Assembly: GCA_024998685.1 (NCBI GenBank)
Contig: JACOEH010000034.1
Location: forward strand, 1-52,801
DNA: 52,801 nucleotides
Direction of reading: 5' to 3'
Origin: Nitrospira sp.
Lineage (GTDB): Bacteria > Nitrospirota > Nitrospiria > Nitrospirales > Nitrospiraceae
This document shows, piece after piece, positions 3,148 through 8,463 of this stretch (the stretch's first letter is position 1; each line of letters begins with the position of its first letter). Both the position numbers and the translations under genes were made by a program. The notes beneath the pieces were generated by a model. That model saw nothing but the letters and a program-made list of their open reading frames with translations, did no database searches and was not told where the DNA came from.

Positions 3148-5046
3148 ATGAAAGTCGAGTATTCGAAGGGAGATCGGGCGTCGAAGGAGCTGATTCTCCT
3201 CAATCGCCAACTGTTTGAAGCCTCCAGCGGCCGGAAGATGAAGGTGCTGCTGATCTTCCCGCCCGACTGGTACCCCTCCGAACCCTATTTGAGCCTCCCC
3301 TCCCTTACCTCGGTCCTCCGCCAAGCCGGGCATACGGTCATTCAAAAAGACATCAATTGTGAGATGTGGGACTGGTACTTCAGCGAGGAGTTTCTGAAGA
3401 AGGTCCTGCGCCGGGTGCCGCAACAATTGGATCGGCTCCGCAAGCTGGCGAAGAAGCGGGATCTGGCCGAGTGGGAGATGGATGTGCAGCTGGCGCTCTG
3501 CGATGTGACACGCCCTCGAATGGAAACACTGATTCGGGATGCGGATGAGGCGAAGTCCATCGTCAGAAACGAGAAGTTTTACGATATTGATAGATTAGAG
3601 TGGGCGATCCAAGTCTTTCGCGAGGTCACATCCGTCATTTCTTTAGTCTATGCTCCGGCGCGGATCTGCATGCCGCCGATGGAGACGGACCTGTCGTACA
3701 AGCCCTACATCTCGATGGACGTGATGGACGTCATACAGGATGAACAGGTCAATGTGTACCGGGACGTGTTCGACCATTTAGTGAAGCCGGTGATTCAGGC
3801 CGAGCAGCCGGACGTGGTTGGGATCTCGATTGTCCTGCAGCAGCAAATGTTTTCGACCATGACCTTCTGCGCCCTCATCAAGCAACATTTTCCCCATATC
3901 CACGTCACGATCGGCGGCAATACGGTCACCCGCCTGCGCGATGTGCTGCCGCAGTCGCCGCTCTTTCAGTATTTCGACAGCGCCGTGGTGTACGAAGGGG
4001 AGACGGCGTTCACGCAACTGGTCGAAGCGGTCGGCGCCAAGCAGAGTTTGGCCGATGTGCCGAATACGATCTATAAGGACGAGACCGGCATCCAGGTGTC
4101 CCCGCTGAGTTATGCGGAGGATATGGCCGCGCTGCCGCCGCCCGACTTCGACGGATTGCCGCTTGAGAAGTATTTCGTCCCCACACGGGTATTGCCCTAT
4201 TTGGCGACGCGAGGATGCTACTGGGGGCGCTGCGAATTCTGCGACCACGGCGAGGGCTATACCGCCGGCTATCGGTCGAAGAAGATTCAGGACATTCTTG
4301 CCGACATCACCTATCTGCGCGACAAGTACGGCGCCAAACATTTTCACTTTACCGACGAGTCCTATCCGCCGGCGCTGTTCCGCAAGCTCTCTCGGGGATT
4401 GATCGAAAGCAACATGGACATCTTCTGGACGACGCACATGCGGTTCGAGAAAAGCCTGCTGGAAGACGCTGTCTGGCAGGATGCGAAGGAGTCGGGCTGC
4501 CGCTATCTGCACTTCGGCTATGAGTCCGGCGTCGAGCGGGTATTGCAGCTGATGGATAAGGCGACGACGGCGGAGGTGATGACGAAGCACCTCAAACTCA
4601 CGGCGGAGGCGGGTATCTGGAACCACTGCATGGGCTTCTTCGGTTTTCCCGGCGAGACGAAGGAGGAGGCCTGGCAGTCGGTGCAGTTCCTCGAGCAAAA
4701 CAAGGACCATGTCCACTCGTTGGGGTTCGGGACGTTCGATCTGGGGCGGCATAATCCCGTGGCAAAACACCCGGAGAAGTGGGGCGTGACGGCCTACAAG
4801 AATCCGGAGTGGGATTTGGCATTGGACTACTACTACACGGTGAAGAACGGCATGAGCATCGAAGAGGCGGAGCGGGTGTTCGAACAGTTCGAGCGGAACC
4901 ACAATCCGGGCTGGGACTTGCGCCTCTATATTCGTGAATATATCTTTCTCTATATCTCAAGATTCGGCTTGGGGAAGCTGTCCGATCTTCAGTATCGATC
5001 GGTTAAAACGGTTGGAGTCACGCCGACACTTGCAGGAAAGATGTGA
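3148..5046 (+). CDS. B12-binding radical SAM protein, first of a tandem pair
   Basis: This 632-residue protein belongs to the cobalamin-binding (class B) radical SAM superfamily. The N-terminal Rossmann-type region starts at KVLLIFPPDWYPSEPYLSLP (about residue 32) and continues with DVVGISIVLQQ near 222 and HVTIGGNTVTRLRD. No DxHxxG motif is visible, so cobalamin may bind without a protein histidine ligand. The cluster motif is RGCYWGRCEFCDH, with Cys357, Cys362 and Cys365 spaced CX4CX2C instead of the canonical CX3CX2C. A TIM-barrel region follows, with HFHFTDESYPP and GFFGFPGETKEEA. Such enzymes methylate or rearrange unreactive carbons, but the substrate cannot be read here. The next gene, 77 nt downstream, is a clear paralogue. 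An alternative start could lie at Met31. Confidence 0.85.
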   Translation: MKVEYSKGDRASKELILLNRQLFEASSGRKMKVLLIFPPDWYPSEPYLSLPSLTSVLRQAGHTVIQKDINCEMWDWYFSEEFLKKVLRRVPQQLDRLRKLAKKRDLAEWEMDVQLALCDVTRPRMETLIRDADEAKSIVRNEKFYDIDRLEWAIQVFREVTSVISLVYAPARICMPPMETDLSYKPYISMDVMDVIQDEQVNVYRDVFDHLVKPVIQAEQPDVVGISIVLQQQMFSTMTFCALIKQHFPHIHVTIGGNTVTRLRDVLPQSPLFQYFDSAVVYEGETAFTQLVEAVGAKQSLADVPNTIYKDETGIQVSPLSYAEDMAALPPPDFDGLPLEKYFVPTRVLPYLATRGCYWGRCEFCDHGEGYTAGYRSKKIQDILADITYLRDKYGAKHFHFTDESYPPALFRKLSRGLIESNMDIFWTTHMRFEKSLLEDAVWQDAKESGCRYLHFGYESGVERVLQLMDKATTAEVMTKHLKLTAEAGIWNHCMGFFGFPGETKEEAWQSVQFLEQNKDHVHSLGFGTFDLGRHNPVAKHPEKWGVTAYKNPEWDLALDYYYTVKNGMSIEEAERVFEQFERNHNPGWDLRLYIREYIFLYISRFGLGKLSDLQYRSVKTVGVTPTLAGKM

Positions 5047-5123
5047 TGATATCGTAAGGGGTAAGGCATAAGTGGTGAGAAGGAGTAACGCCCTAACGCC
5101 TCACCCTTCACGCCTAACGAAAA
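5047..5123 (+). repeat. purine/pyrimidine-rich intergenic repeat-like spacer
   Basis: The spacer between the two radical SAM genes is built from repeated short units such as GGGGTAAGGC, CCCTAACGCC and CACCCTTCACGCCTAACG. The left half is partly complementary to the right half, so the transcript could fold. It has no coding potential. It looks like a degenerate repeat rather than unique DNA. Confidence 0.4.
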
Positions 5124-7070
5124 ATGGAAGAATTGCTTCAAATAGACGGTCTAGCCCCACGGGCTAAGGGCACACAAAAGAAATCGAAAGTCATGCTCCT
5201 GTTTCCGCCCGAATGGGTGCCGACGGCGCCATACCTTGCCTTGCCGTCGCTGACAGCCGTCTTGCGTGAGGCCGGCCATACGGTCATCCAGCGCGATATC
5301 AACATCGGAATGTGGGATCACTTCTTCAGCATGGAGTTTCTGATCTGGGTGAAGGCTCGGTTGGGCATGCAGCTGAAGTCCCTGCAAGAGAAAGAGAAGG
5401 CGGGACTCCTGACTGAACGGGATGTGAGTCACATGGCGGTCGTAGAACAGGCCTATGATCTCGATGTCTTCAATCTGGCGGATCGAGCCGAAGATGCCAA
5501 GCTGATCGTGCGTGGCGAACGTTTCTATGAGGCGGAGATGTTGGAAGGAGCGCTCAACACCTTCCGCGAGACGATGGCCTATATCTCGGCCGCCTACTAT
5601 CCTGCTTCCCTCGTTTTCTATCCGATGGAAAGCAATCTCGGATATCGTCCCGGTGTCTCGAAAGAAGTGTTTGCCTGTTTGGACGATGAGCAGGTGAACG
5701 TCTATCGGGATCTCTGCAACCAGTTGGTCATGCCGGACGTGGCGAGGGAGCAGCCGGACGTCGTCGGGATTTCCATTGGGACACAGATGCAGCTCTTGGC
5801 CGGCTTAACGTTTGGAAAAATGATCAAGGAGACGTTCCCGCAGGTCCATGTGGTGGTGGGCGGCAATGTCATCACCCGACTACAGGAAGATCTGGTAAGC
5901 CATGAGAGATTTTTTACAGACGTATTTGATTCCTCTATTCTCTATGAAGGGGAGCATGCGCTGCTGTGGCTCATCGAAGCGTTGAACGGACATCGGACTC
6001 TCGCCTCGGTTCCCAACCTCATTTATCGTGATGAGTCAGGTCTCCATCGGAATTCCGAAGTGTATACCGAGAAAACCAATGCGCTGCCCTTGCCGGACTT
6101 TGAGGGCATGCCGCTGGATCGTTACTTCGTTCCGGAACTGATCATTCCCTATCTGGCCACGCGCGGCTGCTATTGGGGCCGCTGTACGTTCTGCGACCAT
6201 GGTCAAGGGTACTTCGATCAGTATCGCGGGATGCCGGCTCAGCTGGTGGTCGATCAGATCAAGGCGCTCCGGGATAAGTACCACTGCCGGCACTTTCTAT
6301 TTTCTGATGAATCCTATCCACCGGCCCTCTTCAAGAAAGTCTCCCAGCTCCTGGTTGACCAAGGCGTCGGGATCAAATGGACGACGCTCATTCGGTTTGA
6401 AGAAACATTGCAAGATCAAGCCATCTGGAATCTCGCGGCGAAGGCCGGCTGCTGCACGCTGTATTATGGGATGGAGTCGGCGAACGAGCGGGTCTTGAAT
6501 CTCATGGACAAGCACGCTCGGAAAAGCGTCATCGCGCGCAATCTCCGGATGGCGGCAAAGGCGGGGATTTGGAACCATGTGATGGCTTTTTATGGCTTTC
6601 CAGGGGAAACGTTCGAGGAGGCCATGGAAACTCGTCAGTTTGTCCTCGATCACCAGCCGGTGATTCACTCGCTGGAGCTCTTCTACTTCGTGGCCTACCG
6701 CCACACCCCAATGGTGCGTCATCCGGAACAATTCGGCATGACGATTCACAAGCAGGAGGAGTACGATCTCCCCCTGGACTATTACTACACGTTGGATGAC
6801 CCCGGCACGCTGTCGTGCCTCGATGCGATGCAGCTCTGCGAGGAATTCTACAAGCAAGATTTTCACCCCTGGGCCGTGCGGGTCAACTCTCGCGAACATG
6901 TCTTTCTCTACATCTCGAAGTTCGGGACGAACCGGTTGCCGCAAATTTATGCTCAGCAGACGCAACCGGTCGGATCGCCGGATGGAGTGTCGGGCTTGAT
7001 TACCTGGCCGGTTGCGCATTCGCAGGGCGGCGAAGGAATGTCACGTGTCACCAGTCACGATGCCGGTTGA
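5124..7070 (+). CDS. B12-binding radical SAM protein, second of a tandem pair
   Basis: This 648-residue paralogue aligns with the preceding gene along its whole length. The N-terminus KVMLLFPPEWVPTAPYLALP and GHTVIQRDINIGMWD mirrors its neighbour. DVVGISIGTQMQ and HVVVGGNVITRLQ mark the cobalamin-binding fold. The iron-sulfur motif RGCYWGRCTFCDHGQGY uses Cys349, Cys354 and Cys357, with the same CX4CX2C spacing. FSDESYPPALFKK and AFYGFPGETFEEA follow in the radical SAM barrel. The two proteins differ most in the linker after the N-terminal fold and at the C-terminus. Co-transcription is likely. The pair may act on successive carbons of one substrate or as a heterodimer, which is inference. No candidate precursor peptide was found nearby. 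Confidence 0.85.
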   Translation: MEELLQIDGLAPRAKGTQKKSKVMLLFPPEWVPTAPYLALPSLTAVLREAGHTVIQRDINIGMWDHFFSMEFLIWVKARLGMQLKSLQEKEKAGLLTERDVSHMAVVEQAYDLDVFNLADRAEDAKLIVRGERFYEAEMLEGALNTFRETMAYISAAYYPASLVFYPMESNLGYRPGVSKEVFACLDDEQVNVYRDLCNQLVMPDVAREQPDVVGISIGTQMQLLAGLTFGKMIKETFPQVHVVVGGNVITRLQEDLVSHERFFTDVFDSSILYEGEHALLWLIEALNGHRTLASVPNLIYRDESGLHRNSEVYTEKTNALPLPDFEGMPLDRYFVPELIIPYLATRGCYWGRCTFCDHGQGYFDQYRGMPAQLVVDQIKALRDKYHCRHFLFSDESYPPALFKKVSQLLVDQGVGIKWTTLIRFEETLQDQAIWNLAAKAGCCTLYYGMESANERVLNLMDKHARKSVIARNLRMAAKAGIWNHVMAFYGFPGETFEEAMETRQFVLDHQPVIHSLELFYFVAYRHTPMVRHPEQFGMTIHKQEEYDLPLDYYYTLDDPGTLSCLDAMQLCEEFYKQDFHPWAVRVNSREHVFLYISKFGTNRLPQIYAQQTQPVGSPDGVSGLITWPVAHSQGGEGMSRVTSHDAG

Positions 7071-7072
7071 GG

Positions 7073-7168
7073 AAGATTGAGGTGTGGGTTACGTCCGGCG
7101 AGGAATCAGATGAAAGCTGATGCTGAGGATAAGGTTACGTTCGGTAGGGAGCGCCTACCCTCAATCTT
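7073..7168. repeat. inverted repeat between convergent genes
   Basis: AAGATTGAGG at 7073-7082 is repeated perfectly in inverted orientation as CCTCAATCTT at 7159-7168. Weaker inner pairing (GGTTACGT with ACGTTCGG) lies between them. The element sits between the end of the second radical SAM gene and the stop codon of the minus-strand hypothetical gene. It could form a hairpin in either transcript. There is no T-run, so it is not a classical terminator. Confidence 0.45.
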
Positions 7169-7427
7169 GACCTGAGCCTTCCGTATCTGGGACAAGGACA
7201 GCCGTCAGTAACATATATGCAGCCTCCACTGTCCGGGTCATTTCTTCAGCTTTCCGAAGCTGTTGCATATATTGCTTCGGATTGTTGGTGAGGCCGGCAT
7301 AGCGCGCGGGGTTCCAGTTGTAGAGTTGGACGCGCTTCGCCCGTTCCAGGTCTTCGGTGGTGATGGGCAGCGTGAGGCCAAGAATTTCCAACGCATGGGC
7401 GACGTCCTGCTCGGTGATGGGGTCCAT
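7161..7427 (-). CDS. small hypothetical protein
   Basis: The likely start is the Met at 7427 (MDPITEQDVAHALEILGL), giving 88 residues; the frame is open further upstream. The protein is helical and soluble with no signal peptide. The segment ERAKRVQLYNWNPARYAGLT followed by KAEEMTRTVEAAYMLL resembles a worn J-like helical hairpin, but there is no HPD motif, so no chaperone role is claimed. It stands alone between a convergent and a divergent gene. Confidence 0.6.
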   Translation of the reverse strand: MDPITEQDVAHALEILGLTLPITTEDLERAKRVQLYNWNPARYAGLTNNPKQYMQQLRKAEEMTRTVEAAYMLLTAVLVPDTEGSGQD

Positions 7428-7533
7428 GGGCGGAGTCTGCCAAACAGGGAGGAGGCCTGTCAAATGATGGCGGTTGTTTTATCATGGCATGATCGGGTTC
7501 TGCGGTGTGATCCAGGCGAGTTTGGACGTGACC

Positions 7534-8463
7534 ATGGCTGAACAACGGTCTCTCCAATTCTATCAGGCCGACGTCTTTACCTCTCAACCGTTCGGCGGCA
7601 ACCCCGTCGCGGTGTTCCCAGACGCTGACGGACTGACGGACGACGAGCTGCAACAGATTGCGCGGGAGATGAATCTATCGGAAACTGTGTTCGTCTTACC
7701 ACCGACCGACCCTGCTGCAGTTGCTCGGTTGCGGATCTTTACCCCGACTCAGGAAATTCCATTTGCCGGCCATCCGGTACTCGGCACATTTTACGTGTTG
7801 GCCCAGCTCGGAAGGGTTTCTACTCGGGAACCGGTGACGCATGTCATGCAGGAATGCAATATCGGGTTATTCCCCGTCCAATTGCATGCGGAACAGAATC
7901 GTGTGGTGCGGGTCGTCATGTCTCAACCCAAACCGGAATTTCTCGATCCTATCGATGTCATCGACGACGTGTACTCGGCCGGTGGAGCGCTTGGCTTGCC
8001 GAAGCACGTGATCGCCGACATGAAATGGCCCCTCCAAGTCGTGTCGACCGGCTTACCGGTCTTGATCGTGCCGGTGCGGACGTTGACGGCTGTACGGTCG
8101 ATCAACCCGGATGCTTCGGCCATCATCAATGTCTGCGAACGATTCGGGGCCAACGGGATTATGGTCTTCACGACAGTGACCGTTGAATCATTCGCTTCTG
8201 TCCATGCGAGGATGTTTGCACCGAAAATCGGGATCTTGGAGGATCCTGCGACGGGGAGCGCCGGCGGGGCACTTGGAGCATATCTGGTTCAGAACGGCGT
8301 CGTTGAAGTGGGACCGAGGACGGACATCCTGATTGAGCAGGGCTACGAAATCGGTCGGCCGTCCAGGATTCTGGTGCAGGTTGAGTCCGACGACGACGTG
8401 ATCCAAGGTGTGAAGGTCGGTGGACAGTGTGTCATGGTGGTGGAAGGAGTGTTGAGGTTTTGA
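7534..8463 (+). CDS. PhzF-family isomerase/epimerase
   Basis: The 309-residue protein (start chosen at ATG 7534, MAEQRSLQFYQADVF) matches the PhzF/diaminopimelate-epimerase-like fold. Family signatures in order are QPFGGNPVAVFPDA, MNLSETVFVLPP with the conserved catalytic Glu, FAGHPVLGT and EDPATGSAGGALGAYL. Members isomerise small molecules, and outside phenazine operons most have no known substrate. No phenazine genes are nearby, so phenazine synthesis is not implied. An upstream in-frame start at 7474 would add 20 residues unlike the family. Confidence 0.88.
   Translation: MAEQRSLQFYQADVFTSQPFGGNPVAVFPDADGLTDDELQQIAREMNLSETVFVLPPTDPAAVARLRIFTPTQEIPFAGHPVLGTFYVLAQLGRVSTREPVTHVMQECNIGLFPVQLHAEQNRVVRVVMSQPKPEFLDPIDVIDDVYSAGGALGLPKHVIADMKWPLQVVSTGLPVLIVPVRTLTAVRSINPDASAIINVCERFGANGIMVFTTVTVESFASVHARMFAPKIGILEDPATGSAGGALGAYLVQNGVVEVGPRTDILIEQGYEIGRPSRILVQVESDDDVIQGVKVGGQCVMVVEGVLRF

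Follow-up and report, generated by a model that had tools for sequence, protein, structure and literature searches.

Tandem class 1 cobalamin-dependent radical SAM paralogues conserved in nitrite-oxidising Nitrospirales: putative C-methyltransferases with distinct roles

Bacteria of the order Nitrospirales are major nitrite oxidisers. A 52,801-nucleotide stretch from one of them, Nitrospira sp. (GenBank assembly GCA_024998685.1, contig JACOEH010000034.1; the whole stretch is referred to as the window), carries two adjacent genes, termed A and B, for B12-type radical S-adenosylmethionine (SAM) proteins, and raises the question of what two full-length copies do side by side. The original prediction described them as neighbouring paralogues of more than 630 residues, suggested non-redundant roles, perhaps in a heteromer or in successive methylations, and saw in them a candidate for undescribed chemistry. 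Both open reading frames (ORFs) were intact, in tandem and of the predicted size (Table 1), and their products were 47% identical across 606 residues. We consider, with some but not strong confidence, that A and B are two non-redundant class 1 cobalamin-dependent radical SAM C-methyltransferases in a core operon of nitrite-oxidising Nitrospirales. The enzyme type is already known; what is new here is the genetics of the pair, namely its order-wide adjacency, its ancient split and the way it tracks families.

The B12-binding and Radical_SAM models of Pfam both exceeded their cut-offs in A and in B, and Pfam and the AlphaFold2 models agreed on the class 1 layout, in which an N-terminal Rossmann cobalamin domain is followed by the radical SAM domain; binding of the cofactors by both proteins is expected. 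The cluster motif, CX4CX2C, exceeds the canonical CX3CX2C by one residue and provides the three cysteines of the [4Fe-4S] motif that the class requires. It was identical across 108 of 109 A orthologues and kept in all 76 B orthologues, save for R/K variation at one position. DxHxxG was absent from both proteins, as originally noted. The cysteine spacing had also been read correctly, but it is precedented: the motif of OxsB, the best PDB sequence match of the pair, aligns with it gap-free (CDYSRCTFC), paralogues C and D (see below) and their plasmid relatives have it as well, and GenD1, likened to GenK and Sis14, has been described with Cx4Cx2C (PMC4340712). One review finds exceptions to the spacing not unusual (PMC8992657), and another states that OxsB, TsrM, TokK and Mmp10 use no His ligand (PMC13331322). 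Because the spacing occurs in OxsB and GenD1 and solved enzymes do without the His ligand, neither feature is exceptional among class 1 cobalamin-dependent radical SAM enzymes, and the claim that they signal undescribed chemistry was not supported.

The AlphaFold2 models (mean predicted local distance difference test, pLDDT, 80.0 for A and 77.3 for B) could be superposed, at Z 15-23 and along some 370-430 residues, on TsrM, OxsB, AprD4, MgmA, CysS and TokK, and matched OxsB, TsrM and TokK across both domains. The best PDB fold match was TsrM for A (Z 22.7) and OxsB for B (Z 20.3). Asn186 of OxsB sits beneath the cobalt (PMC13331322); the aligned position is invariant but different in A and B (Table 1) and is Thr in 9/9 C orthologues, and from the alignment it would lie at the cobalt face. 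Fixed differences between A and B span the surrounding loop (V229/L230/Q232 in A vs G219/T220/M222 in B). The lack of DxHxxG and the Val or Gly at this position are consistent with predicted cobalamin binding that is base-off, not His-on.

Table 1. Coordinates of the gene pair, its predicted elements and associated genes (window positions unless a locus is named).
Feature	Position	Strand	Basis
Gene A, class 1 cobalamin-dependent radical SAM protein, 632 residues	3148..5046	+	ORF; Pfam; AlphaFold2 model
Gene B, paralogue of A, 648 residues, starts 77 bp past A	5124..7070	+	ORF; Pfam; AlphaFold2 model
B12-binding match of A, residues 215-291	3790..4020	+	Pfam
B12-binding match of B, residues 202-279	5727..5960	+	Pfam
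Radical SAM domain of A, residues 353-515	4204..4692	+	Pfam
Radical SAM domain of B, residues 345-507	6156..6644	+	Pfam
CX4CX2C motif of A, CYWGRCEFC, residues 357-365	4216..4242	+	motif scan and orthologue conservation
CX4CX2C motif of B, CYWGRCTFC, residues 349-357	6168..6194	+	motif scan and orthologue conservation
Inserted helices of A, residues ~69-219, placed by the model between strands 2 and 3 of its Rossmann cobalamin domain	3352..3804	+	model secondary structure
Helical insertion of B, residues ~59-209, counterpart of the A insertion	5298..5750	+	model secondary structure
A Val229, aligned with OxsB Asn186 (under cobalt)	3832..3834	+	OxsB alignment; Val in 107/107 A orthologues
B Gly219, aligned with OxsB Asn186	5778..5780	+	OxsB alignment; Gly in 74/74 B orthologues
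Small ORF convergent with B, by eye like a degenerate J-domain (WxPxRY in place of HPD)	7161..7463	-	convergent pattern in 51/75 loci
PhzF-family protein, conserved neighbour	7474..8463	+	PF02567 E 2.4e-75; found in 82 loci
Paralogue C, within NxrC/TorD/TatA/cytochrome cluster	L140:8372-10150 (G000:C24)		conserved in nine genomes

Conservation of the pair was followed in a sample of 295 genomes of the phylum Nitrospirota at a match threshold of 1e-80, families within Nitrospirales being labelled f1-f4. An A/B-family match was found in 98 genomes, every one from Nitrospirales f1-f3, and almost all of the nitrite-oxidising Nitrospirales genomes examined had the two genes next to each other. At least two family members were present in 92 of the 98; the remaining six, all assemblies of at least 50 contigs, gave a single match whose E-value (1e-99 to 2e-109) was like that of a paralogue. 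In each of the 18 closed or few-contig genomes searched, A, B and C occurred once, and the four genomes of f4, the sister family in the same order, gave weak or no A/B matches. At loci with both genes, A and B were adjacent and co-oriented without exception (140/140), with a median gap of 91 bp (range -1 to 238), an arrangement that would suit co-transcription; the separation in relatives that would have refuted the original prediction was not seen. In the five loci with A only, B would by the coordinates lie past the end of the available sequence or close to it. Titles of the best 80 of 163 matches in a scan of genome contigs read Nitrospira, Nitrospiraceae, Nitrospirae, Nitrospirota or Nitrospirales, except for one titled uncultured Nitrosospira (L053, CAADGK010000061.1), which has an A 87% identical and is possibly a mislabelled Nitrospira bin. 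Plasmid relatives were distant (~23-30% identity among the matches listed), three being of the paralogue D family. Paralogue D itself (724 residues; L141:8439-10613, - strand) showed 44-49% identity to Bacteroidota and betaproteobacterial plasmid proteins, and its family is broadly distributed.

In the tree, A and B were reciprocally monophyletic, each clade covering more than one family, and C formed its own clade; long branches leave the deeper order unsure. The A/B duplication is placed before the divergence of the nitrite-oxidising families of the order, after which the two copies would have kept different jobs. Strong purifying selection is indicated for both: median ratios of nonsynonymous to synonymous substitution (dN/dS), obtained by simple counting from sequence pairs whose dS was 0.1-1.2, were 0.09 for A and 0.07 for B. 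Because the pair recurs across the order with dN/dS of about 0.07-0.09, it lies far beyond a chance occurrence. The non-redundancy of A and B, as first proposed, is well supported by their separate ancient clades, their constant adjacency, the conservation of both and the 38 positions fixed differently between them in the orthologue alignment.

The likeliest reaction of A and B would be C-methylation of an unactivated carbon. Cobalamin would be methylated by SAM, a second SAM at the CX4CX2C [4Fe-4S] cluster would be cleaved to a 5′-deoxyadenosyl radical, the radical would take a hydrogen from the substrate, and methylcobalamin would deliver the methyl group. The two enzymes probably act in one pathway, on different positions of one endogenous substrate or substrate family. 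Methyl transfer is likely from the enzyme class; neither protein reached the cut-off of any NCBIfam equivalog. Several points weigh against this assignment: that missing equivalog; the fact that OxsB and AprD4 match both models about as well as methylases do, OxsB, BchE and AprD4 being non-methylating members of the class; the lack of any recognised substrate gene linked to A/B; and an order-specificity that is shown within the phylum Nitrospirota only, because the comparison beyond it consisted of plasmid records and the best 80 of 163 matches of the one genome-contig scan. The assignment fixes no substrate, and the confidences of the rival substrates overlap with it. The nitrite-oxidation machinery is one leading substrate candidate, weakly indicated by the position of paralogue C.

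In 9/9 genomes from three families, paralogue C directly follows an EB_dh/NxrC-like gene; eight of the nine also have a TorD-type chaperone gene further upstream and TatA downstream, and in Nitrospina gracilis a TorD-like chaperone has been reported beside one NxrC copy (PMC3578206). It is possible, if on the doubtful side, that A, B and C are maturases installing a C-methyl group (or a related radical modification) on subunits of nitrite oxidoreductase (NXR), on haem subunits of the NxrC type or on partner cytochromes, in the way that methyl-coenzyme M reductase is modified by Mmp10 and MgmA. The three genes also track Nitrospira-type NxrA, which was present in 79 Nitrospirales genomes of the sample; the four f4 genomes had neither NxrA nor close A/B/C matches, and none of 12 non-Nitrospirales genomes with a 40-44% identical NxrA relative had A, B or C at 1e-80. 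Among ten genomes apparently without nxrA, nine contained NxrA fragments, mostly at contig ends, so that the absence is taken as assembly loss; for G000, where NxrA gave no match at 1e-30, this is an assumption. The nxrA region of G233 includes 100 N. TIGR03478 was tried as an NxrB probe of the window's own genome and rejected, its sole match reading as a NarH-type protein. In the metagenome-assembled genome (MAG) G029 of f2 (L147:1-4154), nxrA lies ~4.5 kb from A-B, together with a partial nxrB-like ORF. However, this proximity comes from one MAG, and A-B is far from nxrA in closed genomes. In G093, G172, G176 and G267, closed genomes that share a genus, C lies ~22-24 kb from an nxrA copy and A-B is far off. 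C is just ~35% identical to A, and methylation is unmentioned in the Kuenenia NXR paper (PMC8387239). Because all carriers fall in one clade, co-occurrence may reflect shared ancestry, and the A/B/C-NXR association is only suggestive.

The immediate neighbourhood of the pair was compared as well. Downstream genes conserved at genus level include PhzF, alcohol dehydrogenase (ADH), CBS, MogA and others, and no common upstream neighbour was seen in the same genus-level set. An orthologue of the small convergent ORF matched HscB/DjlA weakly (E 0.002-0.004); the ORF is a conserved neighbour whose functional link to A/B is unproved. The statement that no recognisable substrate gene lies nearby was right for the window, but relatives have a third radical SAM gene close by: rSAM3, of 412 residues, is found 249-715 bp downstream of B on the same strand in 36 loci and is carried by 81/126 Nitrospirales genomes, and a search of the window's genome did not find it. 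This DUF512-like gene (L144:12756-13994 and equivalents) is 3′ of B in most genera and gone from most of the window's genus. Its best score against PF04459 (DUF512) was 24.2 bits (E 2.3e-5), under the gathering score of 25, and four of five members matched at E up to 0.1; likeness to DUF512 or class 2 cobalamin-dependent radical SAM enzymes is a resemblance only. DUF512 has been demonstrated as a cobalamin-binding domain of radical SAM enzymes (PMC11659888), and no PDB relative of rSAM3 was found with the A3 profile. A gene for B12-dependent methionine synthase (MetH) lies near A-B in three f3 genera (L142, L145, L149). Rfam returned just a tRNA, and no riboswitch, at the A/B locus. Elsewhere in the window, a PF00174 molybdopterin oxidoreductase (MsrP-like) gene following a cytochrome b561 gene is seemingly split over two overlapping frames (1872-2477 and 2279-2563, + strand), a possible frameshift or pseudogene, and a short ORF close to the window edge (418-795, - strand) resembles a truncated transposase by eye.

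The metabolic neighbours PhzF and ADH, and MetH in the three f3 genera, would suit a pair whose product is common to the order, be it a lipid, a cofactor or another small molecule; a membrane lipid, quinone or tetrapyrrole with a methyl branch or some other modification would be an example. Weak matches to the lipid and tetrapyrrole enzymes HpnR, HpnJ, BchE and TIGR04072 point the same way, and marine Nitrospirales are described as B12 auxotrophs that carry hopanoid genes (PMC10579370). Yet the HpnR, HpnJ and BchE models scored far under cut-off, no lipid or tetrapyrrole gene is linked to the pair, and lipid-literature searches yielded nothing decisive, which leaves such a product a conceivable but rather unlikely answer. 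That the pair, like OxsB or BchE, carries out cobalamin/radical SAM chemistry without methylating, for instance to contract a ring, cyclise or rearrange its substrate, is unlikely: OxsB is both the best PDB sequence match and the best fold match of B, with the same spacing, and the dehydratase AprD4 ranks high among fold matches, but the methylases TsrM, MgmA, CysS and TokK match about equally and enzymes of this class most commonly methylate (PMC11659888). That A and B are redundant duplicates, as their shared domain layout and adjacency might suggest, is very improbable given the ancient split into separate clades, the strong conservation of both and their fixed differences.

The strict conservation of this B12-type pair in the core genome points to a probably important function and a possible extra B12 demand in an order that includes B12 auxotrophs. 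N. marina needs exogenous B12, and its nitrite consumption stopped without it (PMC8115632); this need could be explained by B12-dependent ribonucleotide reductase and methionine synthase alone. If the pair serves NXR or its electron partners, nitrite oxidation would be tied to B12 supply, and such an NXR-linked modification would be unreported in the literature searched. It is a long shot that A, B, C and rSAM3, as a dedicated set of at most four cobalamin-dependent radical SAM enzymes, modify the nitrite-oxidising apparatus and make nitrite oxidation itself B12-requiring.

Searches of NCBIfam and the PDB turned up no closely similar characterised enzyme pair. In the class 1 enzymes OxsB, TsrM, TokK and CysS, as in A/B, the radical SAM domain comes after a Rossmann cobalamin domain and DxHxxG is lacking, and OxsB shares the CX4CX2C spacing, but identity in structural alignments is 13-19%, and these are natural-product enzymes, whereas A and B belong to the core genome and contain an extended helical segment inserted between strands 2 and 3. 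The GenD1/GenK-type methyltransferases resemble the pair in B12 radical SAM C-methylation, the predicted reaction of A/B, and, by published description only, in the Cx4Cx2C of GenD1 (PMC4340712); unlike A/B, they act on aminoglycosides inside a biosynthetic cluster. The best NCBIfam matches, at 110-137 bits, were TIGR03975 (C-methyltransferases of ribosomally synthesised and post-translationally modified peptides; A 125.9, B 110.4, cut-off 281.85) and TIGR04479 (PhpK P-methyltransferases; A 118.7, B 136.9, cut-off 600), but unlike in the settings of those families no precursor-peptide or phosphinate pathway gene was recognised near A/B, and the BchE, HpnJ, HpnR and BzaD equivalogs gave less than 90 bits against cut-offs of 450-650. 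MgmA, a methylase of methyl-coenzyme M reductase, is a close fold match (Z 17.9-21.1). MgmA and Mmp10 differ from the pair in being archaeal and of known substrate, and Mmp10 in being a class 2 enzyme with a C-terminal cobalamin domain, but they offer the analogy of a core energy enzyme that is itself modified.

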